Source of the DNA: Hexactinellida sp. DTS-2022
Lineage: Eukaryota; Porifera; Hexactinellida
DNA: 64,000 nt
Reading direction: 5' to 3'
Assembly: GCA_028753945.1 (NCBI GenBank)
Contig: JAPNXP010000002.1
Span: 13,330,001-13,394,000 of the forward strand
Position 1 is the stretch's first letter. Each line of letters opens with the position of its first letter. Both the position numbers and the translations under genes were made by a program. Positions 8,824 to 35,445 of this stretch are shown piece after piece. The notes below the pieces were generated by a model, which saw only the letters and a list, made by a program, of their open reading frames with translations, did no database searches and was not told where the DNA came from.

Positions 8824-11800
8824 TTATGTCTTTGTTTTGCTTTGAGCATTCTCTGGAAAAACAGTTTTTTCAACTTTCAGCATGAATTTGTTTTGTTTAT
8901 CCACATACTCAGCCATATTGTCATCAATACGCTGTATTTTCTTCATTAATTCGTTAAAATTAGTTTCGAAATCTGCTTGTTTTTCACCAGCTGTAGATTG
9001 GCCCTTTCCTATTTCCTCATTTTCGCTTTGAGATATGTTAAGCGACTGTCGTGCCTCAATTATATCCACTTTTGCTTTAATTTCCGATATAGACTGAAAT
9101 AATACATTCGGGGAATCCGAAGAATTACTTTGTGTATTCTCAGTTTCAGCTCCTTCAAGGGAATTACTAATTCGTTGGCTATAACTTCTAAAATATGATT
9201 TCCAGGTATCTAGTGGTATGATGATACTCTGAACCATAATACGCTTCAAAGGACGACGGATTGGACAATCGAACTTAAACAGAACATTCGACTGAGTTTC
9301 ATATTCCAGAGTAAGATCAGCTTTGAAATCAAGCAGATTTTTTGTAGCATAAATATTTGCATAAGTTTGCGAGAGCTGAGCAATGAACACATTGAGGAGA
9401 ACGACAATGATACAGAATGCAAACACAAGATAGAAAATTGAAAATATCCACGGTACACCACGAAAGCTTCCCTCATAGTTACCAGGTCCTCCATCAATAA
9501 TGAAGAGTAGACCTGAAATAAATGGAGTTGTGAATGAGGAGAATGGAACGGAAGGGTCATCAAACCAATATGAAAAGGAACATTGTCCACCATTGTATAA
9601 GCAGTAGGTTCTCGCAACCAGTTGTATGCTACCAACATAGCTAAGCAATAGAAGTCCAATTACAAGGGAGAACCTTGGAACATCCTTGGAAAGAACGTTG
9701 GACAATGTTTCGATATAAATTCCAAGCGAAGGAAATATTTTGGTATACTTGTAAAATTTGAACGTGAAAAGCGAGAATGTTAGAGCAGAAACAGTCCAAT
9801 GGATTACACTCATAGTAGAAGAATTTGTCCAAAACAAAATTGATCGAAAAAAGAATAGAACAATGAGAGAAAAGATACTACACATGTCAATAACATTGTA
9901 AGTTTCTTTAAAGTGTTGGTACACGGCACGGAGTTTAAATCGACGCTTACGATCGAAGTTATATAAACGTTTATGCACAAATATAGGAAGTTTATAAAAC
10001 ACAAATTTGACAGCACTCTGAAAGAATTTCCTATATCTATTCAGTTCCCTATCACCATAATATAACACTTGATGTTGTGGACGGTAATTCAGTTCAGAAG
10101 AGGAAAAATCAAGGTTCCTAATGTAGCGCCATTTCCCTTCAATCTCCAAAACCTCATTAATCATAAACAACCATGTAAACACCAAGATGTAAAACTCGAG
10201 ACAAAATCGAAAACGATCTGCGTGGCTGTCATACAGAAATAGTTCAGAATCACATTTTAATGAGGCTAGGAATAATGCTGTTATCAATGGAATGTAAAAT
10301 AGGATCAAGTAGAAGAAAAACAGAGCAATAAACCACAAACGATAGACGGTCAACTTTTCCTCGATCAAGAATTTCACGAGAGGGTGGTATTTGAATTTAA
10401 CAACATCGGATCTGTACAGCTTATGCCAAAGCGAAGCAAGATTATAATTGAAAAATGCAAAATTAGGGTAATCACCCTCCTCATTGGAATCCATCAGCTT
10501 TGTGGCGACCTGTACATTTCGGCTATCAACTATCACTGCTTTATCAAGCACTTTCGAGAAATTATCATAATCTTTATCTCTGAACATTCTATGGACAACG
10601 TCAGGGCACGCTTCGAAATACTCAAGATCACAGAGGTCCACAAACAGATCTACCATTTCCTGCATGCCGCGTTTACGAGCAAGGTCGATCGGACTATGTC
10701 CAGCCACATTCCTTCCATTCATGATCCGAGTGAAGAGGTCTATGTTAGTCTTGTGGATATGCGGGACTATAAGCTGAGCAGTGCGGATCGACTTATTATT
10801 GGCCAGGTAGTGGATGACGTTATTCTCATCGGGGTCACGGGATTCGAAACTTTCAAGTAGGTAATCATAAGTTGGAGTTATTAACAGCTTGAAGAATTCT
10901 ATGCGATCCAAGCTAGCTGCCAACATCACAGGCGTTATGCCATCTAAATCGCAATGCATTAGAGCCTCAATGTATGTCATATGATCTGGGGGATCTCTAT
11001 CGAGTTCATCTCTCCTAGTAGCTTCGTCAAGGAAGAATTTCAGGACGTCAAAGTTATCTCGATATTGTATCGCGTAGTGCAGAACACGCCTCCCATCTCT
11101 ATCGGATGGAGTCAAAGCAATCCCAATACTGAGCAGAAAAGAGATTCGAGAGACACTGCTCTGTTTCGCAGCATAATGTATGATTGTACAATCGGCTGAG
11201 CTAATCCGTCTCTCCAGGTTAACTCTTCCCTTATCAATAATTTCCTCCTGTATATATTGGTTACTGATTTTGTCATAGGCTAACAGGTTTGGGTATTTAT
11301 AGATATTTGCACCCTTATTAACAAAAGAGATAGCTAATTCAGTGTGGTCTTTCTGCATTGCAACCTCGAATGAAGTGCCTTTGGCACTATTCAACTGAAT
11401 GTCAGCTCCTGCGACTATCAGGATATTGGCGATTTGTTCATTTCCCTTTTCTGCTGCGATATGTAATGGCGTTAGATCTTCGTTGTCTCGAGATGAAAGA
11501 ATATTACCAACTAATTCTCTAGAACCACGTTCATAATGTTTCTCTCTTTCTTTCATTCCGTCAACGATTCCCTTCACCAAACTTATGTTCTGCTCAAACA
11601 CAGCCAAATGGAGTAAGAAGCCTCGTCTACCCTCACCAAAGTTCACATAGTGAAAATTGTTCCATGCTTGCAACATAGATTTGAGAATAGAATGGCTTGT
11701 TGGAATGCAAACAGGGATTTGTTTCTTCTTATTCTCACGAACTAATTCTCTCATGTACTCAACTCCACGATCTGCTAAACGATACTCTCTGCCTCTTTTA

Positions 11801-14800
11801 ACTAAATGTTGCATAATAATCTTAACTGTCTCTTCGTCCTTATTCTCTGTCGCAATGTGTAAGGCAGTGTTTCTATCTCGATCGCAAATCTCCAAAGGGA
11901 CACCTGCATCAAGTAGAGACTTGGTCATGAAAACCTTCTCTTTGCCTCTAACCGAAATGTGGAGCGGAGTTTTCTGTTCATTGTTTTTTCTATTTAAAAT
12001 GGTGTTTGAAAATCTGTCTTTGTCTCGTCTCTTAACAGCTTTGATCACAGTATTGAACAGTTCGATATTACAGTCATTCCTTTCATTGTCTGTTGCCATA
12101 TGTACAATAGTATTGCCACTTTTTGGATCAATTTCACAAAGACTGGCGTTGTTATCAATAAGAAGCGTTACAATATCCTTGTAGGAACTCTTGATAGCGA
12201 TCTGGAGTGCAGTCAGGCCTCTATTGTTCTTGATATTCAGAAAATTAGGCAATTTGTGAACAAGTTTTTCACTCTTTATGAATTCATCAATAAGGAATTT
12301 TATTGTATCATAGGGTTTGTCATCTTCTCTAGATTGCTTTTCCAAGAGAATATGGATAATACCATTGCCATCTTGATTTCTTTGTTCAATATTGGCACCA
12401 CGCTTGATTAATGCCATGAAAAATGTGTATTTTTTGTAGTTGATACTAATTTGAAGGGCAGTTTGGCCTTTGAAGTTTCTCAGTTTAATTAATTTTTGAT
12501 TAATATTCTGATTCTTCTGGTATTCCTCAGTCTTTCTAAGAATATATTTGAGAGTTTTCACATTCTCTTTTCTGTTCATGGCAGCACAATGTATTAGAGA
12601 GTTCCCATAGTTATCTACGGAATCGAAATGGAATTGAGTTTGTACTTTTTCACACAAATATTTCATCACAGGTTTGGAAGCCCATTGAGCAGCCAAATGC
12701 ATTAAACGTATACCTAGTGTGTCGAACTTATGCTTATTTTCATTAAGTAACTGTTCAATTAGTTCAGGGCATTTACTTCCAAGACAAGCTTTTACCAGTG
12801 GTTCACTAAATGTAAATTCTACGTCTATTTTCTCCAAGAATTTTGTATCCTTTAGCTCTGGTAGGGTTGAAACTAGAAACTTGCTTCTATTATTGAATGC
12901 GAATGCTACGATGTATTCTTCAATTTGGGTGAGATTCCCTTCTTTTTTCTCTGTATTCCCGAGCAAGAGATGGTCCTTTTCAACAGAAGTACCAACAGTA
13001 TATGTGTCACAACCAATTTCACCTAATTCAATTGAAAGAGTGGCACCTGGGTCCTCCAAGTTCTCTAATTCCTCCAATTTCCCCAATTTCTCGACTGACC
13101 TTAATTTTTTTCGTTTGATGGCCAAATGTAACGGAGAGAGTCCTTTGTTATCCATGATGTTGAATGTACCAATGTCTTTTCCAACCGCTTTAATAATATC
13201 ATCAAGAAAATTGTCATCACAACCACAGTCTATGATACAATGCAAAACTGTCCAATTATTGTTTCTATCGCGTAAGGAAAGAAGAGGATTGTACTTCATC
13301 AATTCATTGAATGCATCATAATTATTGTTCTCAACGGTCACATGCAATGCTGTTTTTCCATTACAATCTTGATAATTAAGAAGTAGTCTACCAAAGCGAT
13401 TTAGATTTTGTTCGTCATCCATTGTGAGCTCACCTAGCACTCGAGAAATTATCTTATTATTATTGGTGATTACAGCATGATGTAGTATTGACCTGTAATA
13501 GCTGTCTACGTATGAAATACTTTCTGGTATCAAGGTAATTGAATTTTTTGGATTCTCAAGCTTGTGAGTATATTCGAGGATCTGAACTACAATATCAAAA
13601 GCAATATTCTGGCTTGGTTCGTCTTTCTTAGAAAAATTGTATTTAGATAAGGCGGTATGTAGTGGAGTTTTACCTTTGTTACAACGTTGGGTGAGTATTG
13701 AGTTGTCGATAATATTCCTTGATTCTTCAGCCTCAAATAACAATCTGATTATATTGTTTGCCTCGCCATTCTGAAGCATAGTTGCGTAGTGAAGGGGAGT
13801 GTAGCCCTCAGGATCTCTCACAAATAGTTGTGACTTGGATTCATGTTTACATTCGTCGTTCGGTGGGGTATTCAAGCCGTTTAACAGGTATTCAACAAAA
13901 CAAGACATTCCGAATGAAATGGCCAAATGTAAGGGACTATATCCGCAAGAGGAGGCGATGGACCAAATCTCTATACTCCATCCTGCATATCCGTGTTTGC
14001 AACAGAACACATCACTTATGGTGCAGGCTGGTATTAGTGGGCCCATGTCAGGTTCTGGCAGCCAATCTGCTTGTGTGGGCCACGAATATCCACGTGTATC
14101 CTGTGAATTGAATAAAGAGCTATTCCTAGCAATTATCATTTCCAATACACGTTGAAGATATCGCGGATCATCAAGGCGGTATAAAATTGCGAGATGTACA
14201 ATAGAAAAACCGTTGTTTAAAGTAGAATGGTTCAAGTTCGCTTCGTACTTATAGAGTAGGTCAAGTGCTAAATAATTATTTCCAATAATACTAAGATGAA
14301 GTGCTGTATATCTCTCTTGATTTGCTTGTGTACGACAGTCAATCATAGGAGTACTGTCTATGAAAGTAGACTCGGGGGAATTGCCGTTTCTCAGGATAAC
14401 TTCTTCCAGAAATATTTCCAGACATTCATCAGTCTTTTCTATATCAGACACAATATTATGAATCAATGTATTTCGATGAGGGTCATAGTAATTCAATTCA
14501 GCTTTATTTTCCATTTTTATATACTCCAGGAACACATCGAGCTTATTTTCTGACAACGCAACATCCAACGGCCGAAGACCACGTTTGTTCTTGATGTTAA
14601 TAATAACTGTTATATCACCGATATTACGAAGTAGATACATAACATTTTGAATCTCATTATAAACAGCTCGGTGGAACATGCCATTTCTATCTCCATCTGT
14701 TTTAGTGTAGTCAAACTTAAGTTGTTTAAATAAGAAACTAATTACTTGTTCTGTACCATACTCTGCAGCGAAATGCATAAGAGTGGACCTGTTAGATAGA

Positions 14801-16560
14801 TCAGCAGCTGTTGTTAATTGAGAAATATTATGGTAAGCTTCTAATGGCTCTGATGTTTGAGAATTCAGAATAGCCTTCAAAAGGTGTTCCCGCAATTCTC
14901 TATCACAGTTTGTAATAGATATTCCTTCAATTTCATTAGCATCAGTTATTATTTTTGTCTCAGAGAGATTGTCAAAACGGAGAGGTAGTTGGCAAACAAC
15001 GAAAATCACTTCTTCAGTTCGATAACCTATTTTTGGTATAAATGAATAACCGATGTAAAATAGATCTTTGTTATTTACTGATTTAAAGAAAGTTAGCGGG
15101 AGTCTTTCATTAAAGTTGAGAGTAATATTGCCTCTAGGTCTCTCGTAAACAATCGATGCACTGTAACTTTTCACTAATGTTTCAACAGCAGCGTAATGAG
15201 CATTCTTGATCGCAAATTGTAGTGGTGTCATTTCTTCGACATTTTTCCGATCGTACAAGTATTCCTCAAAATGTTCTTTGAAGCGGGATTGAATGGATTT
15301 TAGGATTTTGTCGATGCTAATTTCGTCAGTAGGATAAATGGTAGCAGTATGTAAAATAATGTTTCCGTCTTTATCATTCAGGTGTAAACAAGGACATATG
15401 GATAACAAGTAATCAAGTGCAACAGTATTTCCCCGTTCAACACACAGGTGGAGAGCAGTTTTCTTGGCACAATCTTGGTAACAAAGTACGCGATCTGAAA
15501 TCCAAGAATCATCTAATTGCAATTCAGCGATTGTGATAGCATCAATGAGATGTTGAATTATTGAATGGTGATCTTCTAGCAATGCTATATGCAATGGAGT
15601 TCGATCGTCAACATTTTTAGTTTTCAAATTAGTATAGTTGTGGTGTAATCCATCGTATGTTAAAATGAATTTAACCATTGGGGAACAGGTACTGTCTCCG
15701 CTTGGGATTCTTACAGCGTAGTGTAGCATCGTTTGACCTGATTGGTCCCGTGAAAGGTAGTCACAGCCTTCGTTTAAAAGGTATTCCGCTATTGGAATAT
15801 TACCTAAATACACTGCTAAATGGAGCGCAGTACAACCTTCATTATTGGAAAGATTCATCAACTTTTCTAGTTGTCCCATCTTAATGGCACTAACTATCTC
15901 ATTTACAATTTCTAGATCTTCCATAAATACCGCATAGTGTAGTGCTGTGTCTCCAAAAGAATCTTTTGCATCAAGGCTTGGCTTATACCCTAATAGCTCT
16001 GTCAGGTTTGTCAAGTTCCTCTTTTCAATAACTAAATGCAATGGTGTCTTTGAGTCCAGATTCTTTGCATTAATTAGTGGAGTTTTATCAATCTGTGTAG
16101 ATTCATCTCTCGGATCCACTTTGTCCAGTAGACAAGAAATAAAAGTATGATATTTGTCATTGTTAATGATTAGATGCAACAAAGACTCGTTCTTGTGTCC
16201 ATAGGTGTCGTTGCATTTAGAATGATGTTCTAGAAGAAGTGACAATGCACCAGGTTCTTCATTTTCCAAGCTAAGTTCGAGAGAATTGTGAAGGCATTCT
16301 TTTACGGCGATTAGATCGTGTGCATTATCTATAGTATCAAGCTTTTTCAAGAGCAATTCGATTGTGTCCAACTCAGGATTGCAAATCGAAGATTCAATCA
16401 TAGATCTATAATTTGGCACTTGAAAGGAATACAAAGTTTCATCATGTTGTGTGAGATAGTATTCCATAACTTCTTTAGTAGCGTGCTGGCTAACAAACTG
16501 ACTCATAAATTTCTCAATGTTTAACCTTTGTGTTGGTTGCAAAAGACGATTTCTAAACAC
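8824..16560 (-). CDS. Giant ankyrin-repeat TRP channel, C-terminal exon
   Basis: Open frame of 2578 codons. Residues 1 to about 2050 are ankyrin repeats (many TPLHLA/TALHL signatures), interrupted by non-ankyrin insert domains near 440-575 and 1165-1255. Six hydrophobic segments follow, at about 2071-2098, 2112-2140, 2219-2243, 2250-2274, 2294-2317 and 2371-2399. A re-entrant pore stretch around 2339-2362 contains FIIDGGPGNYEG, and S6 ends in LLNVFIAQLSQTY, a classic TRP S6 form. The tail (about 2480-2578) is heptad-like (FNELMKKIQRIDDNMAEYVD). The architecture resembles TRPA1/TRPN cation channels of the plasma membrane, but TRPA1 is only about 1100 aa. The first codon is GTG and upstream in-frame codons read PLRA, so this is an internal exon, probably starting at an AG near 16577. 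It is likely the 3' end of the gene beginning at or above 35057. Confidence 0.85.
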   Translation of the reverse strand: MFRNRLLQPTQRLNIEKFMSQFVSQHATKEVMEYYLTQHDETLYSFQVPNYRSMIESSICNPELDTIELLLKKLDTIDNAHDLIAVKECLHNSLELSLENEEPGALSLLLEHHSKCNDTYGHKNESLLHLIINNDKYHTFISCLLDKVDPRDESTQIDKTPLINAKNLDSKTPLHLVIEKRNLTNLTELLGYKPSLDAKDSFGDTALHYAVFMEDLEIVNEIVSAIKMGQLEKLMNLSNNEGCTALHLAVYLGNIPIAEYLLNEGCDYLSRDQSGQTMLHYAVRIPSGDSTCSPMVKFILTYDGLHHNYTNLKTKNVDDRTPLHIALLEDHHSIIQHLIDAITIAELQLDDSWISDRVLCYQDCAKKTALHLCVERGNTVALDYLLSICPCLHLNDKDGNIILHTATIYPTDEISIDKILKSIQSRFKEHFEEYLYDRKNVEEMTPLQFAIKNAHYAAVETLVKSYSASIVYERPRGNITLNFNERLPLTFFKSVNNKDLFYIGYSFIPKIGYRTEEVIFVVCQLPLRFDNLSETKIITDANEIEGISITNCDRELREHLLKAILNSQTSEPLEAYHNISQLTTAADLSNRSTLMHFAAEYGTEQVISFLFKQLKFDYTKTDGDRNGMFHRAVYNEIQNVMYLLRNIGDITVIINIKNKRGLRPLDVALSENKLDVFLEYIKMENKAELNYYDPHRNTLIHNIVSDIEKTDECLEIFLEEVILRNGNSPESTFIDSTPMIDCRTQANQERYTALHLSIIGNNYLALDLLYKYEANLNHSTLNNGFSIVHLAILYRLDDPRYLQRVLEMIIARNSSLFNSQDTRGYSWPTQADWLPEPDMGPLIPACTISDVFCCKHGYAGWSIEIWSIASSCGYSPLHLAISFGMSCFVEYLLNGLNTPPNDECKHESKSQLFVRDPEGYTPLHYATMLQNGEANNIIRLLFEAEESRNIIDNSILTQRCNKGKTPLHTALSKYNFSKKDEPSQNIAFDIVVQILEYTHKLENPKNSITLIPESISYVDSYYRSILHHAVITNNNKIISRVLGELTMDDEQNLNRFGRLLLNYQDCNGKTALHVTVENNNYDAFNELMKYNPLLSLRDRNNNWTVLHCIIDCGCDDNFLDDIIKAVGKDIGTFNIMDNKGLSPLHLAIKRKKLRSVEKLGKLEELENLEDPGATLSIELGEIGCDTYTVGTSVEKDHLLLGNTEKKEGNLTQIEEYIVAFAFNNRSKFLVSTLPELKDTKFLEKIDVEFTFSEPLVKACLGSKCPELIEQLLNENKHKFDTLGIRLMHLAAQWASKPVMKYLCEKVQTQFHFDSVDNYGNSLIHCAAMNRKENVKTLKYILRKTEEYQKNQNINQKLIKLRNFKGQTALQISINYKKYTFFMALIKRGANIEQRNQDGNGIIHILLEKQSREDDKPYDTIKFLIDEFIKSEKLVHKLPNFLNIKNNRGLTALQIAIKSSYKDIVTLLIDNNASLCEIDPKSGNTIVHMATDNERNDCNIELFNTVIKAVKRRDKDRFSNTILNRKNNEQKTPLHISVRGKEKVFMTKSLLDAGVPLEICDRDRNTALHIATENKDEETVKIIMQHLVKRGREYRLADRGVEYMRELVRENKKKQIPVCIPTSHSILKSMLQAWNNFHYVNFGEGRRGFLLHLAVFEQNISLVKGIVDGMKEREKHYERGSRELVGNILSSRDNEDLTPLHIAAEKGNEQIANILIVAGADIQLNSAKGTSFEVAMQKDHTELAISFVNKGANIYKYPNLLAYDKISNQYIQEEIIDKGRVNLERRISSADCTIIHYAAKQSSVSRISFLLSIGIALTPSDRDGRRVLHYAIQYRDNFDVLKFFLDEATRRDELDRDPPDHMTYIEALMHCDLDGITPVMLAASLDRIEFFKLLITPTYDYLLESFESRDPDENNVIHYLANNKSIRTAQLIVPHIHKTNIDLFTRIMNGRNVAGHSPIDLARKRGMQEMVDLFVDLCDLEYFEACPDVVHRMFRDKDYDNFSKVLDKAVIVDSRNVQVATKLMDSNEEGDYPNFAFFNYNLASLWHKLYRSDVVKFKYHPLVKFLIEEKLTVYRLWFIALFFFYLILFYIPLITALFLASLKCDSELFLYDSHADRFRFCLEFYILVFTWLFMINEVLEIEGKWRYIRNLDFSSSELNYRPQHQVLYYGDRELNRYRKFFQSAVKFVFYKLPIFVHKRLYNFDRKRRFKLRAVYQHFKETYNVIDMCSIFSLIVLFFFRSILFWTNSSTMSVIHWTVSALTFSLFTFKFYKYTKIFPSLGIYIETLSNVLSKDVPRFSLVIGLLLLSYVGSIQLVARTYCLYNGGQCSFSYWFDDPSVPFSSFTTPFISGLLFIIDGGPGNYEGSFRGVPWIFSIFYLVFAFCIIVVLLNVFIAQLSQTYANIYATKNLLDFKADLTLEYETQSNVLFKFDCPIRRPLKRIMVQSIIIPLDTWKSYFRSYSQRISNSLEGAETENTQSNSSDSPNVLFQSISEIKAKVDIIEARQSLNISQSENEEIGKGQSTAGEKQADFETNFNELMKKIQRIDDNMAEYVDKQNKFMLKVEKTVFPENAQSKTKT

Positions 16561-18523
16561 TGCTCTTAAGGGTAATCTGTATTGATATTCGGGCGTTCAC
16601 GGTGAATCTCAGAATTGCATAATTTACTACTAGGAATACTCTAGATGAGATAGAGATTGACTTCTATGATTTTTTTTTTCTTAATTTTCAATCAAGATGG
16701 TGTTTTTTAATAAAATAAGACGTCGACTTCCTTATATGGGCATGACATTTTTTCAAAAATTGTTGAATCTTTTTGAATTTTTGAACATATTATTATGAGA
16801 CTATTTCCTCTCAGTAATAATTTTTATTTTATTTATTTTTGCAGAAGAAACGATGCTAAAGGGCATTTTTTCAAAATAATCATAAAACGCAGTCGTGCAC
16901 TAAACTATCGTTATAAAATGTTAGAAGAAAATTTTTTCAATTCTAGTTCAAGGGTCTGAGGATGCATCATGTGTTACCCCAGAGAAATTTTTTTACTTTC
17001 TGATTATTATTTTTGGTTTTATAAGCATTCTAAGGCTGCGGCCCACGAATTTTCCGAATTTCAACATCAAAAGAGGTGATAAAATTCTACACTGCCATAT
17101 ATTGTTCCCAAAATTAAAAATTTCGGAATCTAGAGGTCAAAATATACAGGTTCACGTCAAAAGGTTCAGGAATATGTCAAAAATTAGGAAATTAGGGGCA
17201 TAAAAGAATATGAAGGGTATGCAAGTACCCGGTGATCATATATTACTGTGGGAAATTGGAAAGCAGAATAATTCTGTTATTCTTCATAAAAATGCGCCAG
17301 CTTCTTATCTATGCGTAGCATTTGTTTTCAACACTTTTACAATAATATATCATGAGTTATGACCAATTTATGACTATGGTTTTGTCTGTTTTGTCATATT
17401 TTCACACCTCAAGGCCCTCAAATATACAATAAAGTATTATATAAAACACCAATTTGGTAATACAAATATGGAAATAGCATTTGCGCACAAAATGAGACGT
17501 TACACAACACGATCCAATCATTATTCGATAAGTTATGGACTTTTGGGCCACAGAAGGGGGCAAAAAATCTGACATTTCACACCTGTTGATATTTCAGAAA
17601 CGCTTTGAGATAAAATGTTCATAGGCATTAGAAAATACTGTAAATACCTGACTTTCTATACGTTTATAATACATTTTAGGACTCTAGGTGTCACACTTTT
17701 TAACATGACCATATATGGTAATTTGATGTGCCCAATTTTGATGACGAAGCAAATTTTGTAACTCTTGATCTCTGGACAGCAGAGACTAGCTCTAAAATTC
17801 TAGTCACATCATGATACTATTTCTTACTCATTGGATAAACTTTTGGGATTATATTATAATTCGAATGATGTGTTCTGATTTCAAATGCCCAAATATGGTG
17901 GTGTCAAAGTGGCAATATGTTAAAAAGCTGACAAAAATCCAACTTCTGATCCAAATGAGATAGAGCTTAGCTCTAAATTTCTAAAAATAGTCTAATTCAA
18001 TTTCAAATGACATTATCTATTTTATGCAGTTTAGGAACTCCTTTTCCTCGCACTTTCATATTCTGGACTCAGCCACTGCGACACAAATTAATTAAATGCT
18101 AATTATGAAGGTGTAAAAAAAGACCATTTGGGCATATGGATGTAAAAAAGAGAATTTTTATTCTAGAAAGTCAAACTTTTTTTTAAAATGCTCAGTATAT
18201 GTAGGCGCATGTTTTAAAAGCGGGCAGTTTTGGCAATATAATACAAAAAAATTGAATTAGTATACTTTTAATGAAAAATAGTGGGGTTTTTTTGACCAAT
18301 TTCACAAAAATGACAATAACATAGAGTAGATTAAAGAAAAAGCATATTTCGGTTCGATTTAAAACATTGAGTATTGACTCAGGTATATTTTATAATTGAC
18401 ATGTTTCGCGCTAAAAACTAACATAAAATTTTTTTGTAAATATTTGGCTAGCATGGATTAGGCCTATATTGACATTGTCTAGTTCATAACTAAGGATATA
18501 TACATAGTAGAACTCTAATATTT
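16561..18523. other. Non-coding gap between ankyrin frames, probably an intron
   Basis: About 2 kb of AT-rich DNA without a supported gene. On the minus strand the 3' side has a possible acceptor, TATCAATACAG, followed in frame by TTA CCC TTA AGA GCA and the ankyrin frame. The 5' side lies where the preceding frame is cut inside an EPLR motif. One phase-compatible pair is intron 18617-16577, but its donor (CC/GTTAAGG) is weak. The repeat period on both sides fits if this gap is removed. Confidence 0.5.
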
Positions 18524-22672: not shown

Positions 22673-23186
22673 GGGTTGGTGTGTACAGAGCTAATTAGAA
22701 AGTAAAAGGAATTTATCAAAAGAATTCGGTTGTCATGTAAACCAATGGTGAATAACTGGCTAGATTAGTCTATTTCAATTATAATTATTACTACATTAGA
22801 CTCCGCTGAAATGGTATAGTACCAGACAACTTGTCCCAATTAACCAAAATTCATAGTATGCTTCGCGAAGATTGGACAAATATGTGGCATCAAATTAAGC
22901 GGATTTTACTGTAACTTGGATATCTTAAACTGGATGACGTATCTTTTAGTATAAGTACTTATGTACACATTAATTAGGAAAAAATAATTGACCCAGAAAG
23001 ATCATCGGAGTAGCGTAACCCTGTAAGATGATATAAATAAAATAATGAAAGTATTATAAAATAATAGAATGTTTTAGAAAATTAAAATCCTTTAGATAAA
23101 TTCAAAATTATTTGAAATGCATAAAACTACCTGAAACAATTCTGTAATAGGTAGAATAAAAAGTAATACCAAAGTTAAACGGTGTC
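22673..23186. other. Short gap between ankyrin frames, probably an intron
   Basis: 514 bp without coding potential. A phase-compatible splice pair exists: donor TTTCAG/GTTCTG at 23194/23193 and acceptor GGGAG/AAATC at 22656/22655, which would join DCFR to NQIRQC. The acceptor has a poor pyrimidine tract. A better tract (ACTTTCTAATTAG, near 22690) gives the wrong phase for that donor. The gap includes an inverted-repeat element at 22793-22913. Confidence 0.5.
22793..22913. mobile_element. Degenerate MITE in the ankyrin-gene gap
   Basis: About 120 bp with imperfect inverted ends: TACATTAGACTCCGCTGAA on the left and TTAAGCGGATTTTACTGTAA on the right. The AAGCGGA signature also occurs in fragments near 42360, 48418 and 50088. 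Confidence 0.55.
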
Positions 23187-26100: not shown

Positions 26101-29100
26101 TTAAGAGCATCAATAGGAATATCATCCAAACTAAGACGCATAGTTTCGCATAGCGTAGTTGAAATATTATAAATCAGTTTTTCTTCTTCATTTGAAATAT
26201 CTGTTAATTTGGGGATCTTTTGATAGGAATACTGGGTTGGAATAAAATCAAGAGTAGCTTCAAAGGTATCACTGTTAGTGACTCCATTTCTAACCATCGC
26301 GCATAGATCTTCAATTGCTAAGTTATTACATAAATATTTGATAACGTTTTTGTGTCCATTTTTGGAGGCTAGATTATTAAGCCATTTCCCTTTTCCTTCT
26401 TTCCTTTCTTTATTAACTAGATTATTTTGGATTGCAATCTCAATTGGTTCAGTACTAGCACATTTAACTATACTTAATATACTTGCGTCTGGTATGGACT
26501 GTGTAAATTCTTCAAGTTCCCGGTTCTCTATTACCGTGGTTTCCTCTAGCCTATGTAGAATTGATACAATCCATCTTCCTTTTTGTAACATTTTATAACC
26601 AACAAATAAAGTGTCTTTAGAAAAAATTGATACAAAAGAGCCAAAAAATCCTTTATTTGCTTTAGCGAAGCACAGTGATAATCCTCCCTTTCCGTTATAC
26701 AGAGTTGCGAACCCCGTATCGTCAGTGTAAGATAGCATAGCACCAAAGTCAATGAGCTTTTGAACTGATTCCAGTCGATTCCCCAGAATTGCCAAATGAA
26801 GAGGAGGTAATCCTTCGCTATTCGTATCATTGAGATAAGTAATCATTTCAGCTTGAAACGAACTTTTAATTTTCTCCAAAATGCAATTCAAAATATTCAC
26901 CGGTTTTGAAACTGCAAGGTGAAGAGGAGTCTGCCCAGAATTATTTTTCAAATTTAACAAAGGATTAAGTTTCAGTAACGCTACTATTGTTGTTTCTACT
27001 CCTAAGTCAATAGCTATGTTGATGGCGGCATTTCCGTTCTTATCTTTGAGGTTCAATACATGAAGAGGATCTGTGGTATTTTCTGATGAAATAACTTTTA
27101 GAATTTTGAGGAATATTTCGGAATGATCTTTGCATAGTGAACGGTGCAATACGGTCATTTGATCTTTGTCAGTTATGGTCAAGTCAGGTTTTTCTGCAAG
27201 CAGAAGTTGAATAGCTTCGATTTTATTGCGAATCACTGCTATGTGTAATGGCGTTTGGCCTGAGTAATCTTGAACTCGGATTAAACTGTTGTCCGGATTA
27301 GGATTTTCTCGCTCATAATCTAATAGGAATTGGATAGCTTCTTGCCTGCTCTTTATGCTTTCAACTGCGAGATGTAGCACGGATTGACCTGACTGATTGA
27401 CAGCATATAAATTAGCTCTTTCTGTTAACAAGAGTCTCATAATATCACTATTAAAATACATGATTGCGAAATGTAGCGGTGATAGCTTTTGTGTATTGAC
27501 AGCATTGACAAATAATGGAAGATCTCCATGCATTATTTTAACGTAATCAAGGAGTATTATGATTAATGATTCGTAATTGTACTTTGAAGCCAAGTGCAAA
27601 GGAGAATTTCCCTCGGAATCTTCACAAGATAAGTTTGGAGAAAATGTTAAAAGAGATCTCAAGCATTCTTCTTGATTTTCTGAAATACAAAGATGCAAGG
27701 CTGTATTCAGGCTCACATGAATAGAATAGTTCGCATAAGTACAGAGAATGCTAGGCTCTCTCCTTCCAATCTCCGAGAGTAGGCCAGTTAAGTATTCGGC
27801 ATTTTTATGACCACTCACTATTTTGTGAAGCAGAGTGCAACCATTAACGTCTTTATAAGCTAATTCTATTTTAAATTCTACCTTTAATAGAATAGTGAAC
27901 GCATCGTAATTATCAATTTCCAATGCAACTTCAAGTAACCTTTTCCCACTTTTGTTCGTTGCATTTAAAAGAACAACGCCTGGAGGTTTGTTCTTATTCA
28001 GCTCAACAATCTTGTTTATTAGAAAATCTAATATTGATGAACTAGAATTATTAAGCGCATAGAATAGGACTGAGTCTCCATTACTGTCAAGTGAGAAAAT
28101 GTCCATGATGTTGCACAATTCTGTAACAACTTCGATGGTACCAAGCATTGCAGCATAATGCAATAAACCACATGTATTGCTTGTGGTCTTAACATTTTTG
28201 GAAATTAGCTTCCTATTAAGAAATACAATAAGTGGCTCGGAGCTAGGATATTTTAGGACAGTTTGTAAAGCCGTTAAATCAAACTTAGTTATTTCAGTGA
28301 TTTCAGAATCTTTATATAGAACTGCTTCGCTTCTCATATCTGGAATTGTAGTTAGTATCCAACTTGTTATTTTGTCGAATACAACCTTATAGCCCATCAT
28401 TAGATTGCCACTGTTTCTAAGTCTGCAGAGTTTGAGTGAAAGTTGTGAGTTCAAAGCACACATTGTTAATTGTCCTTTCATATTCACAAACACGAATTGA
28501 GATTGCTGAAGAGTTTTAATTGCAGGCAGATTGTTATTCCTTATAGCGTAATGAAGAGGTGTTAGGTTATCTTCATTTTGAAAACAAAAGATTTCTTTAA
28601 TCCTTTCCTCTTGGGATTTCTCAATGAATTCTTTCAGCAAAATAAGCAGTTCGCTTTGTTCAGGTGATTCTCCTGCGTGGTGAAGAGGTGTATTGTTTTG
28701 AGAATCGGTTGTGCTAATATTCGGTGTTAAACTGAGTATATCTTTAAAAGCAGTTAAATTATTATGAATAATGCAATAGACTAATAGAGTTTTGTTATCG
28801 AGTGTTTCTTCAATAATAGACTGATAGTGGGGACAAGCTTTTAGCTCAGTAAAGATTCGATTCCAAATTGGAATCACTTTATTTTCAATTGCAAAATGGA
28901 AAATGTTTTTCCCTTCATTATCCCTATCGTTTATATCTATATCTTTCTTCAGTTTAAACATCGCTTCAAGGGCTCTGAGATTGCTTCGGATAATACAATA
29001 ATGCACTGGTGTTCGACCTTCAGCATCTTTATATTTGTGCAAATCGGTATCATGTAATAGTAACTGTACTAATTCGGGGCTAAATTCTTCTTCCTTTAGT

Positions 29101-32100
29101 AGTAATGCATGGTGTAGTGTAGTTCGATGCAAACTATCGACAATTTCCTTTCGTATACATCCTTTGGCTAGCAGGACTTTCAAATTAATAGTATTACCAT
29201 TCTGTGTGGCTAAATGTAATGGAGTATAACCTTGGTTATTTTGTGCGTTTAGATTATCAGAAAGTTTATCAATCGGAATGGCATCGAGAATCAAATTCAA
29301 AATTGCTTCATCAAAATTGTACAGAATTGCCAAATGTAATGGTAAGTTTCCACATTTGGAATTGACAAAGAGAGAATACTGATTTTCTAACATAAACATT
29401 ATGTAGTCTTGTAAGTGTTCTACGATAGCCAAATGCAATGGAGTTAAGTTGGAAGGACCAGCAGCATTTCCAATGAGATTCGTATACTGTTTATTAGATA
29501 GAAATACTGAATGTAATTTTTTGAAAAAAGTCACTTCTGCCCTTAGTAGAATAATTCTATGGAACAGATTATAACCTTTTGAATCAACATAGTCCAATTC
29601 AATGTTGTATTTGGAATCCAGAAGAAGGGAAAAAGATGAAAAATCATTTCTTTCAATGCAAATATCGAGGATACGGTTTCCAGTAACATTTTGAATATTA
29701 AATAAATTATAGGAATTAATTCTGAACATATGATTGCAAATAGTTTGGAAAATACTTGCAGTTTGGTGAAGCAGGGCGTAATAGAGAATAGAATTTTTAT
29801 TCTCATCCAACTTAGTTAGATCTTGTTTGAATAACCAGTGTTGTATGATTTCAGAAGATCCATAGCGAGCTGCTAAGTGAATCAATTCACAGTTTCGATC
29901 TAACTGCAACACATAAGGAGGTAGTAGCACCCGGTTAATAGGCTCAACACAAGGGGATCTTAATATAGAGATGGTATACTCATTTTTAAGGTTTTGTGGC
30001 ACTGAAATTTCGCTAGATAGGTAGAGTTTAGTGTTATCCAATTGAGGTAATTCCACTAGTATATATTTAGAGGTTGTGTGAGAAATAGCTAATTTGTAGC
30101 CTATAAGAAGTAATGAGGGATTTTGATTTTTCTTACAAATAACTAATAACTTTGTGTCAACTTGTGAGTAAAGACTTAATTGATTATTTGTGGTTAAGAA
30201 AGATAAGGAAATATTTTCACTTATCATAATTTCGATGGCTTTAATATTTCCTTTTTGAATGGCACATAGTAGTGGGGGAGTAAAATCAAGTGCTTGTGGG
30301 TAGAAATATATATCTTTCCAACATTTGGGTTGATTTTTCTTCAAATGTAGTATGATATTTGTAAGGTAGATAATGCTATCAATTTGTAATATCGAAATTT
30401 CAATTAGTTTTCTCCAATCTGATTCTGAAATGGAAATACGTGGATTGAGCCCTAATAAATCATCGAAGGCTGTCTCATTTCTGCATTTCATACACAACGA
30501 AATTGAAACAATTAAATTAAAAGTAGATTTCATGGCAAAAAAATAACTTTTCGTTAGGTGAGCAAACAAAGTTTCCCAAATTTTGTGGTTTTTACACTCG
30601 ATTGAAAGGTGTATTATATTCTTCCTGCTTTTATCTGTTTGACTGAAATCAATATTCGTAGGGTGTTCAAGAAACACAGTCAAGGCTGTAAGATTACAAT
30701 GGGTGATCGAGCAAAATACAGGTGTTTGTCCGGAGTTATCCCGCTCGGATAATAGAACTGGATATTGTAATAAAGTAGTGAGCATTAATTTGAGAGTTTC
30801 TTCAGGTATTTTAGGGTTGCATACAGCATAATGAAGGACGGTTTGATGATTGGCATTAACGATATCTGGCCGGGCATTATTTAAAAGTAATAAATTGAGA
30901 ATTTCGTTATAACCTTTGCAGACTGAAATATGCAATGGAGCTATCTGGGAAGTATCATTTGTTAGAGAATCAATCAGATCAGTACATTTGGCTGACTTGG
31001 AATTTGCAATATGAGATAGCAGAAGTTCAATAATAGGAAAATTGCCCGTTGAAGTAGCGAGGTGTATTGCGTTATATCCTTTGTTGGTAATACTCAAATC
31101 AGGATTGAGTCTCAAAACTGAGCTCACAATATTAACATTGTTACTCTGAATACTGAGATTTAAAGCTGTCAATTTATCGCCCGTAGCTGTACTATTGGCA
31201 AACTCACTTAATTTATTGGAATTAATAAATCGTTTTATCAGTATGTCAATAAATGGTGTAATAAAACGTTCGCCCTGATCATTTTGAATAATAAGATGGA
31301 GTAGACTTAATTTATTGACATTTTGGTAAAATAAATCCGAAATATATGGCAAGATAATTGTAAATCCTGAAGGATTATTAATTTCTAAACATATCTCAAG
31401 TATTCTCTTTCCTTCAGAATTTGTGATATCGAATAGATTTTTATGTCTCTTATTTTCCTCCGAATTTAATAATTTGGAAACTTCCCCAAGTACATCTAGT
31501 TTTTTGTTTTGTAGTGCATAGTACAACAATGAATTATTTTGTGTATCCAATGCAGTGGGGGGGAGACTATGCCTACTAATTAAATAAGATAGGATATGTT
31601 GCGAACTATATTGTGCGGCATAATGTAGCAATGTTGCACCATTTGAAAATGTATAATTAATAATCCTGTGATCAATCAAGTAGTCAATTATATCACTACA
31701 ATAAGTTTGAAGAAATAGCGGTATAGTATCTTCTGGAATTGAGGTAACTTTGGTTACCGAATTTTCTTGAAATATTTCTGTAGACTGGAGAGATGGTATC
31801 TCTGTAAGTATTAATGCGGTTTCTTGCAATTCAGTCGTACTTTTAATTCTATAACCGAATAGGTACATTGGTTTGGGACACCCATTTTGGCACAAAAGTA
31901 GTTTATCACCAAGTTTGCCTGAAAAAAATGTCAATTCCTCTTTAAATGAAGCTACGATTGAGATACCTTGCCTGAGAAGAAGTTTCACTCCCTCAATATT
32001 ATTGTTGTAAATAGCGTAATGCAGGGGAGGTAACTGTTCTCGATTTTTTGATTCAAGTAACATTTTTCGCTCTGCCTCGGATAAATTTTCCTTGTTAATA

Positions 32101-35057
32101 TAATTTAATAGGTAGTTTAATATCGCAGCTTTTTCTGATGATTTTGCCGCTAAATGAACGATAGAGTTATTTTCTGGATGCCCTGGGTATAGATTAGGAC
32201 GCAGTGTTAATATATCTTGAACAGCAATCAAAAAAATACATTCAATTGACTGTTGTAAAAGAGTTAAACCAGATGAACATTTCTGATCAATTAAGTCTTT
32301 TTTTTCATGTTTTGATAGATTACCTATTATAGCTCTCCAAACAGCAACATTGTTGCCATTAATAGCATAGTGTACGGGTGCTTTATTCGTATTGTCAGGT
32401 TCTGAGATACTCAAACCCTGTTGCACGAGTAACGTAATGGCATATGGTTTAATAAAAATAACTGCATAGTGGAGAGGAGTTCGTCCTACATTATCTTTGA
32501 AAGTGAAAAGTAATTTAACACTTTCCTCCTTTAAAATGGCTTCCAACGTATCATTATCTCCATTCTTAACTACTAGATGCAGTATCGACTCGCCATTAGG
32601 CCCACGGAACGAAGTACCCTTATCTCTGTTAATAGCGTCAAACGCTCCAATACCGTCAATTTTCATGAGGGAGATTATCGGGATTTCATCTTTTTCATTT
32701 GCTTTACAATAAAGTTGTCCGATTTTTGGATGGCCAAGTAAAATTTGAATAATTTCTTTATTGCGAGTATTGATGGCTGTATGAAGAATAGTATTCCCAC
32801 CTGGGAACTCAATGTCAACACTTGCTCCCATACTGAGGAGACGCTTCACAGTGATAACCTCGGATTTATATATGGAAATATATAATGCAGTTTCATTTTG
32901 ATAGTTTTTCTTATCGATAAAAGTGAGTATTTCAATACTTTGAGCATGGTGATCTGGTAGTTCGATACGGTTTAAGAAATATTTGACTAACCAACCGTGA
33001 CCATAATTCAAAGCCAAATGTAGTAGTGTGTTCCCTTCTTTATTTGGCTTAATTATATTCTTGAAAGAAAATCCATCACAGAACTCTAAAAATGTTTCGC
33101 CTTGAGCATAAATATAAAAGTTAAACGCCAAAGGAGAGCCTTCATAATCCAAATCTTGAATTTGTGTAGATTGATCACACAATTTTGGATAGTTTCGTTG
33201 ATCAAGCTTCATTATTAGCACTGTTCTTATTTCAACCTTACTTAGGCAAAAACGTTGGATATAGGACGGATAACATCGATTGATACTATCTGGTAAGTCA
33301 ATTCTAGCCCCATTGGAAACTAATAATTGAGTTGCCTGAAAAACTTTATTTTGGATACTGAGTAGAAATGGGGTCAAGAAAATTTTATTGATTTTATTAG
33401 TAGAATTAATTAATGCATTTTCCTCGCAATTTTGATCAAATTTTACCACTGCTCCCAAAATAAGCTTAAATATGTCATTATCATACTTCAATAACGAGTT
33501 ATGTAAGACATTACATCCCGTTATATCTTGCGCAGTTAAGATAGAAGAGTCCTGGAGTTCAAGTAAAAGTTCTACAGCATCCTTGTACTGGCGCTCAACA
33601 GCTAACTGAAGAGAATTTAAACCCTTCTTGTTTTTGTGAGCGAAAATAGACGATTCAGGAGTAATTTCCAATATAAATCTCAGTAAATCAATGTTCTTAT
33701 TATTAGTTATGACAATTTGTGCAATATTATTCTGCTCGCTGTCATGGCAACCTTTCAATAAAACAAGTTTAATACACTCTTTGGCCATAGGATCACCCAA
33801 CATAATATTAAAAGGAGTAATATTTTGGGAGTTAGTAGAAAAAAGAAGTTTGTTAAAGTCGTTTTGTGGAATTTTCTCCAAAAGAATACCAAAGTTTGCA
33901 TACTGTTTGTTCAAAATACAAGAGTGAAGAATGTTATCTCCCGAAAAGTTTACAATGTACCAGTCCGTAACATCATGTATAAAGTGTAAAAATAAGGGGC
34001 CAGAGTCGCAATACTGGGAAGCGATATGCAATAAACTGTCTCCATTTTTTAATTCATCGGACTTTTTTAGCAAATTATTTTTAGGAGAAAAAATGTAATC
34101 AAGTATTTGAGGGCAGTTTAAAGAAAGTAAGGATTTAAATTCTGTCATTAATTTCGGAGTTGAGCAATGAGATAACTTGTCTGTTCTTGTGCATTGAATA
34201 TTTTCTGGATTGGAAACTAATGCATAAATTGAGTAATTAGTAGAATATCTAGATTTGTAAATATCAAAACAAATAGCTAATTGTTCTCCAGGTGGTTTTG
34301 TATCCGTAAAATATCCGATTGAAATTTGTCCTACAACTGATTTAAATACTTTAGAAGTCTCATCATAAATCAAAATTTGAGCACCACACTTCATTAAATG
34401 ATCTAGCGAAGATTGATGTGTAGAATACGACTCTTTAAGAATTTTCTGAGTTAGTACAGCTAATGGGGTCATGCCATCATTGTTTCGATGATTAATTAAT
34501 TTCGGATCTAAAGTATTCATACGAGAAATCAGCTTTTCAATAAAGTTTTCGCTTTTTGGATGTATGCAAGCTCTGTGAAGGTATGTATTTCCTTCCGGAT
34601 CAATAAAGCCCCAATTAATTTTATGCGGACAATTAAGTACCTTGAGTATTACATCACTATTGGCAGAAGCGGAAATTAAATTATATAAAAATGAATTGAT
34701 CGATACAAACGGAGTGTTCGAATGAGAATTCCAATCTCTTTTCAATAACTGAGTTATCAAGTAGCAATCAGATTTCTTGAATTCTGTTTGAATAACTGAA
34801 TCAAAATTATTTGACTCAGGGAGTTCAGAATAAAAACTATATTTCGTATTATTAAAAGATAAATCAATTATAGCATCCGGTTTGTCAAAGCAAATAACAT
34901 ACATATTCGATTTACCTGTTAAAAGAGAACACAAACCATAAGATGTTTGCATGAACCCTGGATAGCTGTAATAAAAAACATGGCCTTTACGAAGAATATG
35001 ATCTGTAGATCGATTATCTAAATGTAGAAGAGTAAAATAACTAAACTTCTTACTCAA
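23187..35057 (-). CDS. Giant ankyrin-repeat protein, N-terminal large exon (likely same gene as the TRP frame)
   Basis: One uninterrupted frame of 3956 codons. After about 150 residues of unclear N-terminal sequence it is ankyrin repeats throughout, with the TPLHLA, GNTALHFAV and GYTPLHLA patterns. Five clear insert domains have anchors near residues 1121, 1704, 2273, 2869 and 3468, a spacing of 569-599. More divergent inserts may lie near 240-320 and 600-680. No signal peptide or membrane helix is evident. The first codon is TTG with an in-frame stop ten codons upstream, and the first in-frame ATG is at about residue 36, so an upstream exon probably supplies the start. The frame ends in CFRF, in the middle of a repeat unit, just before a possible donor. 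The proposed role is the cytoplasmic ankyrin tail of the TRP channel downstream. Alternatively it is an independent scaffold protein. Confidence 0.8.
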   Translation of the reverse strand: MSKKFSYFTLLHLDNRSTDHILRKGHVFYYSYPGFMQTSYGLCSLLTGKSNMYVICFDKPDAIIDLSFNNTKYSFYSELPESNNFDSVIQTEFKKSDCYLITQLLKRDWNSHSNTPFVSINSFLYNLISASANSDVILKVLNCPHKINWGFIDPEGNTYLHRACIHPKSENFIEKLISRMNTLDPKLINHRNNDGMTPLAVLTQKILKESYSTHQSSLDHLMKCGAQILIYDETSKVFKSVVGQISIGYFTDTKPPGEQLAICFDIYKSRYSTNYSIYALVSNPENIQCTRTDKLSHCSTPKLMTEFKSLLSLNCPQILDYIFSPKNNLLKKSDELKNGDSLLHIASQYCDSGPLFLHFIHDVTDWYIVNFSGDNILHSCILNKQYANFGILLEKIPQNDFNKLLFSTNSQNITPFNIMLGDPMAKECIKLVLLKGCHDSEQNNIAQIVITNNKNIDLLRFILEITPESSIFAHKNKKGLNSLQLAVERQYKDAVELLLELQDSSILTAQDITGCNVLHNSLLKYDNDIFKLILGAVVKFDQNCEENALINSTNKINKIFLTPFLLSIQNKVFQATQLLVSNGARIDLPDSINRCYPSYIQRFCLSKVEIRTVLIMKLDQRNYPKLCDQSTQIQDLDYEGSPLAFNFYIYAQGETFLEFCDGFSFKNIIKPNKEGNTLLHLALNYGHGWLVKYFLNRIELPDHHAQSIEILTFIDKKNYQNETALYISIYKSEVITVKRLLSMGASVDIEFPGGNTILHTAINTRNKEIIQILLGHPKIGQLYCKANEKDEIPIISLMKIDGIGAFDAINRDKGTSFRGPNGESILHLVVKNGDNDTLEAILKEESVKLLFTFKDNVGRTPLHYAVIFIKPYAITLLVQQGLSISEPDNTNKAPVHYAINGNNVAVWRAIIGNLSKHEKKDLIDQKCSSGLTLLQQSIECIFLIAVQDILTLRPNLYPGHPENNSIVHLAAKSSEKAAILNYLLNYINKENLSEAERKMLLESKNREQLPPLHYAIYNNNIEGVKLLLRQGISIVASFKEELTFFSGKLGDKLLLCQNGCPKPMYLFGYRIKSTTELQETALILTEIPSLQSTEIFQENSVTKVTSIPEDTIPLFLQTYCSDIIDYLIDHRIINYTFSNGATLLHYAAQYSSQHILSYLISRHSLPPTALDTQNNSLLYYALQNKKLDVLGEVSKLLNSEENKRHKNLFDITNSEGKRILEICLEINNPSGFTIILPYISDLFYQNVNKLSLLHLIIQNDQGERFITPFIDILIKRFINSNKLSEFANSTATGDKLTALNLSIQSNNVNIVSSVLRLNPDLSITNKGYNAIHLATSTGNFPIIELLLSHIANSKSAKCTDLIDSLTNDTSQIAPLHISVCKGYNEILNLLLLNNARPDIVNANHQTVLHYAVCNPKIPEETLKLMLTTLLQYPVLLSERDNSGQTPVFCSITHCNLTALTVFLEHPTNIDFSQTDKSRKNIIHLSIECKNHKIWETLFAHLTKSYFFAMKSTFNLIVSISLCMKCRNETAFDDLLGLNPRISISESDWRKLIEISILQIDSIIYLTNIILHLKKNQPKCWKDIYFYPQALDFTPPLLCAIQKGNIKAIEIMISENISLSFLTTNNQLSLYSQVDTKLLVICKKNQNPSLLLIGYKLAISHTTSKYILVELPQLDNTKLYLSSEISVPQNLKNEYTISILRSPCVEPINRVLLPPYVLQLDRNCELIHLAARYGSSEIIQHWLFKQDLTKLDENKNSILYYALLHQTASIFQTICNHMFRINSYNLFNIQNVTGNRILDICIERNDFSSFSLLLDSKYNIELDYVDSKGYNLFHRIILLRAEVTFFKKLHSVFLSNKQYTNLIGNAAGPSNLTPLHLAIVEHLQDYIMFMLENQYSLFVNSKCGNLPLHLAILYNFDEAILNLILDAIPIDKLSDNLNAQNNQGYTPLHLATQNGNTINLKVLLAKGCIRKEIVDSLHRTTLHHALLLKEEEFSPELVQLLLHDTDLHKYKDAEGRTPVHYCIIRSNLRALEAMFKLKKDIDINDRDNEGKNIFHFAIENKVIPIWNRIFTELKACPHYQSIIEETLDNKTLLVYCIIHNNLTAFKDILSLTPNISTTDSQNNTPLHHAGESPEQSELLILLKEFIEKSQEERIKEIFCFQNEDNLTPLHYAIRNNNLPAIKTLQQSQFVFVNMKGQLTMCALNSQLSLKLCRLRNSGNLMMGYKVVFDKITSWILTTIPDMRSEAVLYKDSEITEITKFDLTALQTVLKYPSSEPLIVFLNRKLISKNVKTTSNTCGLLHYAAMLGTIEVVTELCNIMDIFSLDSNGDSVLFYALNNSSSSILDFLINKIVELNKNKPPGVVLLNATNKSGKRLLEVALEIDNYDAFTILLKVEFKIELAYKDVNGCTLLHKIVSGHKNAEYLTGLLSEIGRREPSILCTYANYSIHVSLNTALHLCISENQEECLRSLLTFSPNLSCEDSEGNSPLHLASKYNYESLIIILLDYVKIMHGDLPLFVNAVNTQKLSPLHFAIMYFNSDIMRLLLTERANLYAVNQSGQSVLHLAVESIKSRQEAIQFLLDYERENPNPDNSLIRVQDYSGQTPLHIAVIRNKIEAIQLLLAEKPDLTITDKDQMTVLHRSLCKDHSEIFLKILKVISSENTTDPLHVLNLKDKNGNAAINIAIDLGVETTIVALLKLNPLLNLKNNSGQTPLHLAVSKPVNILNCILEKIKSSFQAEMITYLNDTNSEGLPPLHLAILGNRLESVQKLIDFGAMLSYTDDTGFATLYNGKGGLSLCFAKANKGFFGSFVSIFSKDTLFVGYKMLQKGRWIVSILHRLEETTVIENRELEEFTQSIPDASILSIVKCASTEPIEIAIQNNLVNKERKEGKGKWLNNLASKNGHKNVIKYLCNNLAIEDLCAMVRNGVTNSDTFEATLDFIPTQYSYQKIPKLTDISNEEEKLIYNISTTLCETMRLSLDDIPIDALNKLLTLNPCLNFLYPEANDTLLHLMIKKNKSSDFLEIFFKKIIEIEPGNHEVVTVNGVRIIDAKNESLMTALSLSIQMEQVENIKMLLKYKPGLTSCDGLKNSILHFAAKTSNHVIVGLIIAEIFDSPDLNYLFNAANSDGCIPLHIATETGHLAICEQLLSNGSEFYSRDDALRYILHHAILIQTEVGRTSIINFILNNEKNDKNTNNIVLLEDKEGQLPIHYAVIQKCLASLELLISHTSTIKYKDSKGQTILHLATIHGNSTTNIISCILTEILNQEETNPNSGWVTDRVINFQDNCHKTPLHLCIDNQNHACLKEILTANPNLELVDIEGNTLLHTAVEVNDTCYLETILSKIPLEFVSNFFNRLNSLGLPPLQYAILKNNFLAAEILVNKKATLAFQSDGKTRICVESGKFIFEIVPYKDQCWAGFRISHTNREYLVITDLPDLKNTIFLKHGDARSIKPYRQLTAQNIKQISECQSCDPFNYAIETGLITTDTKLKDGLHVATLIAKHGNKEVVKRFYEIHKDTLYFEKSGNSMVESAVANLNIESLELLLSFLPSSLQPTEPQSQEIASCVKNSLKLSLKNPDTGALNALLSYSNKVNYLYTPYNLTLLHLAIQEQLSTDLLNAIFTKVNAEGTESVFENVKFINKQSESSKQTVLHSCIRLKKKDALDVLLANSPNIFICDVDGNTALHFAVLHTRDLKYVEIIHGFAKDKQKLLNIRNIKGYSALHLAVIGGNLEIVNFLLSSNAEFYPQKSNEPTLLHLAIKLQNDSTRGDVIAALLPYKKQENNQCEITQLKDDFGYPPLHLAVRLRTKNAVKLLLDADPSVLFLKNEDGHTPLHLSVIPQPVATGIKLPYCEVIFNEVLGVIMSCSGVEVCSTCQVNNVICTQDNLKRTAMHYVIQYNNTKALKTLLEQKTCLNVPDQDGNILLHEAVKNINDISCLELVTEELEFRYKDDNFMDCFRF

Positions 35058-35230: not shown

Positions 35231-35273
35231 AAATGTCGAAAATATGGTCAATTTATTTATTTATATACTATAT

Positions 35274-35445
35274 AGTGAACTCCCGTTATAACTATGTCGG
35301 ATATAACGAAATACGCTCTTTTAACGAAATGAAGATTTCCCCCCAGAGCACTAAATGCATTAATTATTATCCGCTTATAATGAATATCCGGATAAACGAA
35401 GGAATTTACAGGTCCCAAACACTTTGTTATAACGAGAGTTGACTG
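35274..35445. mobile_element. MITE family B copy
   Basis: About 172 bp with inverted ends TAGTGAACTCCCGTTATAAC and GTTATAACGAGAGTTGACTG, flanked by TA. The interior has repeated GGATATAACGAA motifs. The same ends occur at 44760-45091, where the element is split by a family A copy. Confidence 0.8.

Follow-up and report, generated by a model that had tools for sequence, protein, structure and literature searches.

Long frames, ankyrin modules and a channel domain

The window, by which we mean the whole stretch of 64,000 nucleotides that was analysed, carries three very long open reading frames in succession on its minus strand (frames 1, 2 and 3, of 3956, 1382 and 2578 codons), and the ORF list agrees exactly with the coordinates and start codons that an earlier sequence-only reading had given for them (Table 1). 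At the base composition of the window, the ln probabilities of these open runs are approximately -290, -101 and -189, respectively, and the lengths of the frames are far beyond chance. The intervals that separate frame 1 from frame 2 and frame 2 from frame 3 are referred to as seam 1 and seam 2. Other frames of the window match the P2X-receptor, TRAF/MATH, NHL-repeat and C2HC zinc-finger (zf-C2HC_2) families, which places the locus in an animal gene setting. Separate bacterial-style genes were considered for the three frames and rejected in view of these animal-type neighbours and of a genome of 112.4 Mb in 18 contigs. The P2X-receptor match falls in two stretches, in a frame of 392 codons (45350-46528, minus strand), and an Rfam scan of the window gave 0 matches.

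Table 1. Features of the locus, in window positions
Feature	Position	Strand	Remarks
Frame 1	23187-35057	-	ORF, 3956 aa, opens with TTG
Frame 2	18524-22672	-	ORF, 1382 aa, opens with ATG
Frame 3	8824-16560	-	ORF, 2578 aa, opens with GTG
Exon A, proposed giant internal exon, ~11.8 kb	23194..35017	-	In ORF 23187-35057; N-terminal and middle ankyrin/insert modules
Exon B, proposed, 5' part	18613..22628	-	In ORF 18524-22672; module starts at residues 17, 627 and 1229
Exon B, proposed, 3' part	8824..16565	-	In ORF 8824-16560; final ankyrin modules, then channel domain, C-terminal tail and stop codon
Seam 1, most likely an intron	22629..23193	-	Exact ends uncertain; unique DNA; in-phase GT-AG pairs
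Seam 2, non-autonomous TTAA (piggyBac-type) DNA transposon, 2043 bp	16570..18612	-	Imperfect terminal inverted repeats GGGTnnTCTGTAnTGATATT
TTAA target-site duplication, left	18613..18616	.
TTAA target-site duplication, right	16566..16569	.
Inserts, ten copies, one per module	span 12751..31952	-	Module comparison
Inserts 1-5	31674-31952, 29940-30200, 28218-28490, 26430-26729, 24633-24902	-
Inserts 6-10	22262-22543, 20438-20713, 18617-18907, 14839-15150, 12751-13059	-
Channel domain, S1 to S6 with pore loop (DGGPGN)	9358..10356	-	Hydropathy, Ion_trans, profile search
Conversion tract, 7437 bp	9136..16572	-	98.3% identical to the inverted sister gene; alignment

All three frames encode ankyrin repeats, with Pfam Ank_2 scores of 633, 207 and 357 bits on frames 1, 2 and 3. 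A home-made profile found 68 repeats in the three frames at a domain E-value of 0.01 and 102 at E 50, and nearly the same numbers (66 and 100) in a sister gene on the same contig; some diverged repeats were probably missed by the profile. The repeats are organized in modules, each consisting of a run of ankyrin repeats and one insert of ~95 residues. In agreement with the periodicity proposed previously, the modules of frames 1 and 2 start 572-610 residues apart, and one module of frame 3 measures 697 residues. The window gene and the sister gene each have ten full copies of the insert; counting weaker N-terminal modules seen by eye, there are probably ~13 modules in all, as against ten clear ones.

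Comparison of the insert with the PDB yielded no convincing match (best E-value 0.31), and in Pfam the first member had no match and the best hit, at E 0.017 in one of the ten members, was stray and weak. All ten genomic candidates retrieved by tblastn with one insert copy (E up to 1) fall in the two giant genes only, as do the 12 of 14 candidates that a longer piece of the insert matched at E up to 0.01. In a third, shorter relative, the insert was detected by profile only, with four full matches. It is a repeated domain for which no relatives are known.

The channel domain lies toward the end of frame 3. Ion_trans matches this part with an E-value of 9.5e-8 (32 bits, the cut-off being 25). 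Hydropathy analysis located helices S1, S2, S3, S5 and S6, and the pore helix at a lower threshold; S4 was not picked up. The pore loop contains the motif DGGPGN, which four of the seven aligned relatives have in common together with NILIAQLSETY after it.

The sister gene and the transposon at seam 2

The sister gene (contig C11:13546620-13570604) is inverted and located ~0.2 Mb from the window gene. It consists of a frame of 4535 codons and one of 3305 codons, ~0.46 kb apart, which follow the same order as the frames of the window gene and contain modules of the same kind. The protein upstream of the conversion tract, comprising nearly all of frame 1 and the greater part of frame 2, shares 25-34% identity with its sister counterpart in the best alignments, which indicates an old duplication after which very long open frames persisted in both genes. 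The second sister frame passes unbroken through the position of seam 2. The two sister frames are the chief evidence for a single gene of ~7,900 codons, as the sequence-only reading had also proposed. We consider it highly likely, with a probability of roughly 0.86, that the three frames of the window form one gene. Its predicted product is a giant subunit of a TRP-type cation channel, with ~7,860 residues from the frames and further ones from a short first exon.

The translations at both breaks are as previously described: frame 1 ends within a module that frame 2 resumes, and the motif cut after SQEPLR at the end of frame 2 continues in frame 3 with LPLRAVFRN. The proposed gene would comprise two giant coding exons of ~11.8 kb each (exon B taken without the transposon), parted by a short intron at seam 1. 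With the splice choice CAG^GTTCTGA/AACAG^TAATC and the transposon removed, exons A and B add up to 23,582 nt, slightly below the 23,655 nt claimed earlier. The acceptor that would open exon A (TTTAG^AT, at 35017) has, as judged by eye, the same phase as the acceptor opening the first giant ORF of the sister gene, and a first exon is thus expected upstream. Neither a first exon nor a start codon was found upstream of the window and sister genes, and the matches returned by a search for a conserved exon resembled noise.

Both gaps between the frames had been taken for introns, an interpretation that probably holds for seam 1, as discussed below, and fails for seam 2. All 12 loci fetched, 11 of them besides the window copy, have terminal repeats and TTAA at both ends; the inverted repeats are imperfect and ~20 bp long. 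A genome search, in which 40 of the 853 candidates passing a first look were scored, returned 39 further copies with 99% identity to seam 2, the 40th match being the window copy itself. The combination of transposon end and TTAA occurs 251 times in the genome (126 + 125), compared with 0 occurrences of a reversed control pattern. The longest ORF starting with ATG inside the element encodes 57 aa. Terminal repeats, target-site duplication and many near-identical copies led us to reject an ordinary intron, and from its sequence we identify seam 2 as a recent TTAA transposon insertion that would interrupt exon B.

The element resembles piggyBac-type non-autonomous elements in its TTAA duplication, in the short inverted repeats at its ends, in its many near-identical copies and in the lack of a long ORF. 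There are 57 genome matches to the transposase family PF13843, none of which was linked to the ends of the seam 2 element. At one locus (contig C2:490917-496057), the same transposon ends are separated by ~5.1 kb rather than 2.0 kb, either as a nested insertion or as a longer relative.

Removal of the transposon restores a frame that is still present in the sister gene: the empty site CCGTTAAGAGCAGTG reads CCG TTA AGA GCA GTG (PLRAV), and the sister gene reads CCG TTG AGA GCA TTG (PLRAL) at the same place. Compared with the consensus of the 11 other copies, the window copy has 11 differences in 2043 sites (0.54%), and the insertion is therefore young. Because it lies in coding sequence, it may have broken the window gene of the assembled haplotype, unless splicing removes the transposon. 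The gene may accordingly be silent there or yield truncated products, and the sister gene may carry the function.

In contrast to the 25-34% identity of the upstream protein, the DNA from 16572 to 9136 is 98.3% identical to the sister gene, with a dS of 0.028, a disparity that points firmly to gene conversion. The alignment of the tract contains one gap, of six bases. Its left edge (16566-16572) is situated within ~20 bp of the transposon insertion site; this may be a coincidence, or reflect re-use of the TTAA or repair following an earlier excision. With its 0.54% divergence from the consensus, the transposon looks younger than the conversion tract (dS 0.028).

These data bear on the fate of the window copy. 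One alternative to a broken copy is that the transposon is spliced out as a new intron and that full-length channel is still made from the window gene. In-phase GT-AG pairs are available at its edges, for example donor GTACTG at 18603 with acceptor GCAG before 16559, which would add one residue, and donor GTTAAG at 18617 with acceptor TTAAG before 16564, which would remove two. The frames on either side of the transposon are both open. Furthermore, when the differences between the window and sister genes were polarised with the third relative, over the 1323 residues that could be aligned with it, four of 30 amino-acid differences proved to be window-derived and six sister-derived (20 unresolved), giving no sign of faster decay of the window copy. 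The insertion is, however, too young for decay to show, and the splice sites at the transposon edges were judged weak by consensus; we thus regard splicing of the element as somewhat unlikely.

A second alternative is that the window gene is a pseudogene, dispensable already before the transposon arrived, as might be expected from a near-identical channel part in the sister gene and from a transposon within coding sequence. Over codons 1-2470 of frame 3, dN/dS between the two genes is 0.456 (43 synonymous and 74 non-synonymous differences), and the tract contains 0 stops, as against ~5 expected in 117 random changes (4.6% of substitutions create a stop). This constraint may be one-sided, acting in the sister lineage only. 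Frames 1 and 2 have nonetheless stayed open over 3956 and 1382 codons without a near-identical sister copy, and an earlier loss of function appears distinctly unlikely.

The break at seam 1

Seam 1 differs from seam 2 in that its DNA (~0.5 kb) is unique, the sole genome match being itself, and a transposon was therefore rejected at this place. It is located between window modules W05 and W06, and the sister gap lies between their nearest sister modules, C06 and C07. In a tree of 20 modules, computed with a long-branch warning, the pair W05/C06 has support values of 99/99 and W08/C08 of 100/100, and W06/C07 is weakly supported (87/58). As the DNA is unique and occupies the same inter-module place as the sister gap, we infer that seam 1 is most likely an intron, as the sequence-only reading had held. 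Several in-phase GT-AG pairs are present in the window; the best, in our judgement, are CAG^GTTCTGA after 23194 with AACAG^TAATC at 22628, and CTG^GTAACTGA with TTTCTAATTAG^CTC.

Three observations count against the one-gene model at this point, namely the weak W06/C07 pairing, the poor donors of the in-phase GT-AG pairs in the sister gap, and the mismatch in the number of modules on either side of the seam (5 + 5 in the window gene versus 6 + 4 in the sister gene). A gene boundary at seam 1, with a giant soluble ankyrin protein upstream and a TRP channel of ~3,900 residues downstream, would agree with the poor sister donors and with the ATG that opens frame 2 as listed, but it is very improbable given that the break is module-internal in both genes, that the modules on either side match in order and that the window has in-phase splice pairs at the seam. 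The sister gap (C11:13560225-13560689) also contains a small palindromic repeat (GTAGAACCTCGTTAGTACGAA ... TTCGTACTAACGAGGTTTTAC), which we take to resemble a mariner/Tigger-type miniature transposon.

Kinship and possible working of the proposed giant channel

The genome contains 39 stretches that match the channel domain, including that of the window itself. Outside the giant pair, the open frames at these matches range from 262 to 1268 codons. The third relative (contig C14:4530458-4541808) has frames of 2400, 760 and 447 codons (~3,600 in sum) and, unlike the window gene, is split within the channel domain, with a different exon layout. From these frame sizes, the genome has TRP-like channels with short frames, one of ~3,600 codons and two of ~7,900.

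A single-sequence search of the PDB with the pore returned 21 matches, all of them TRP channels. A pore profile of eight rows matched 89 PDB chains at E 0.01, and the best 60 of these 89 matches are all TRP channels, some of them fusions and yeast YVC1 included. The best matches include 6pw4, an algal TRP channel (E 4.6e-14), and TRPV1 (~8e-9); TRPA1 and NOMPC are not among the best 60 of the 89. The match to 6pw4, a chain of 901 residues entitled 'TRP-like ion channel', spans positions 133-348 of the 362 profile positions; presumably it is crTRP1, the algal TRP1 of Chlamydomonas. The giant protein would thus belong to the TRP channel superfamily, on account of a six-helix channel of the Ion_trans type and a pore nearest to those of TRP channels. 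The TRP-type assignment of the sequence-only reading is borne out by the profile, whereas a kinship with TRPA1 and TRPN, with which that reading had compared it, is not, the pore profile scoring best against the algal channel and TRPV.

The overall architecture nevertheless recalls other ankyrin-bearing TRP channels. TRPN has about 29 ankyrin repeats. Like the window protein, NOMPC/TRPN (PDB 5vkq; a chain of 1732 residues) has a long N-terminal ankyrin array before a six-helix channel, and TRPA1 (e.g. PDB 6v9v) likewise combines an ankyrin array with a channel, its chains measuring 1,119-1,197 residues, one fusion aside, among the matches listed. The window protein differs from NOMPC in its length of ~7,860 residues and in modules broken by the 95-residue insert, and from TRPA1 in size and inserts. 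TRPV, which has six ankyrin repeats according to PMC12503276, is alike by pore-profile similarity only. A large demosponge TRP expansion is grouped with TRPA and TRPML in PMC7385117, and a kinship with TRPA is thus conceivable. No giant ankyrin TRP channel of such size was found in a search of the literature, mostly outside subscription journals.

The working of the protein can be outlined under the one-gene reading. Ten clear modules, and probably ~13, would precede the six membrane helices and the pore. TRP channels are tetramers, and we infer the same assembly for the giant subunit; the latter would have a mass of roughly 0.9 MDa and the tetramer of about 3.5 MDa. The ankyrin tail of NOMPC provides the nearest precedent for a tether. 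By this analogy, the cytosolic ankyrin tail could act as a tether or spring and as a docking scaffold, and relay force or binding signals to the channel pore in the way suggested for NOMPC; a tether role is put forward tentatively, as a possibility that falls short of even odds. If it is one chain, the protein would be several times the length of the TRPA1 and NOMPC chains of the PDB, and would exceed the subunits of ryanodine receptors (~5,000 residues). The concept of a gating tether made of ankyrin repeats would reach an extreme, in a probably early-branching animal.

The most far-reaching interpretation is that the locus encodes a new class of animal channel, with a subunit of ~7,860 residues, some 100 or more ankyrin repeats and an unnamed insert, serving as a tethered sensor of great length in a probably neuron-less animal, while the transposon in one of the two copies is becoming an intron. 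Taken as a whole, this combination is speculative and unlikely. The gene pair, one with a young transposon and the other without, would provide a direct test of splicing-out from coding sequence; the example without the seam 2 transposon is the sister gene, outside the window. The locus also illustrates how a transposon within a long exon may be mistaken for an extra intron. Finally, a repeat of ~180 bp is located just upstream of frame 1 (35269-35449) and recurs at two places within the 50 kb around the sister gene, with 86% and 90% identity.
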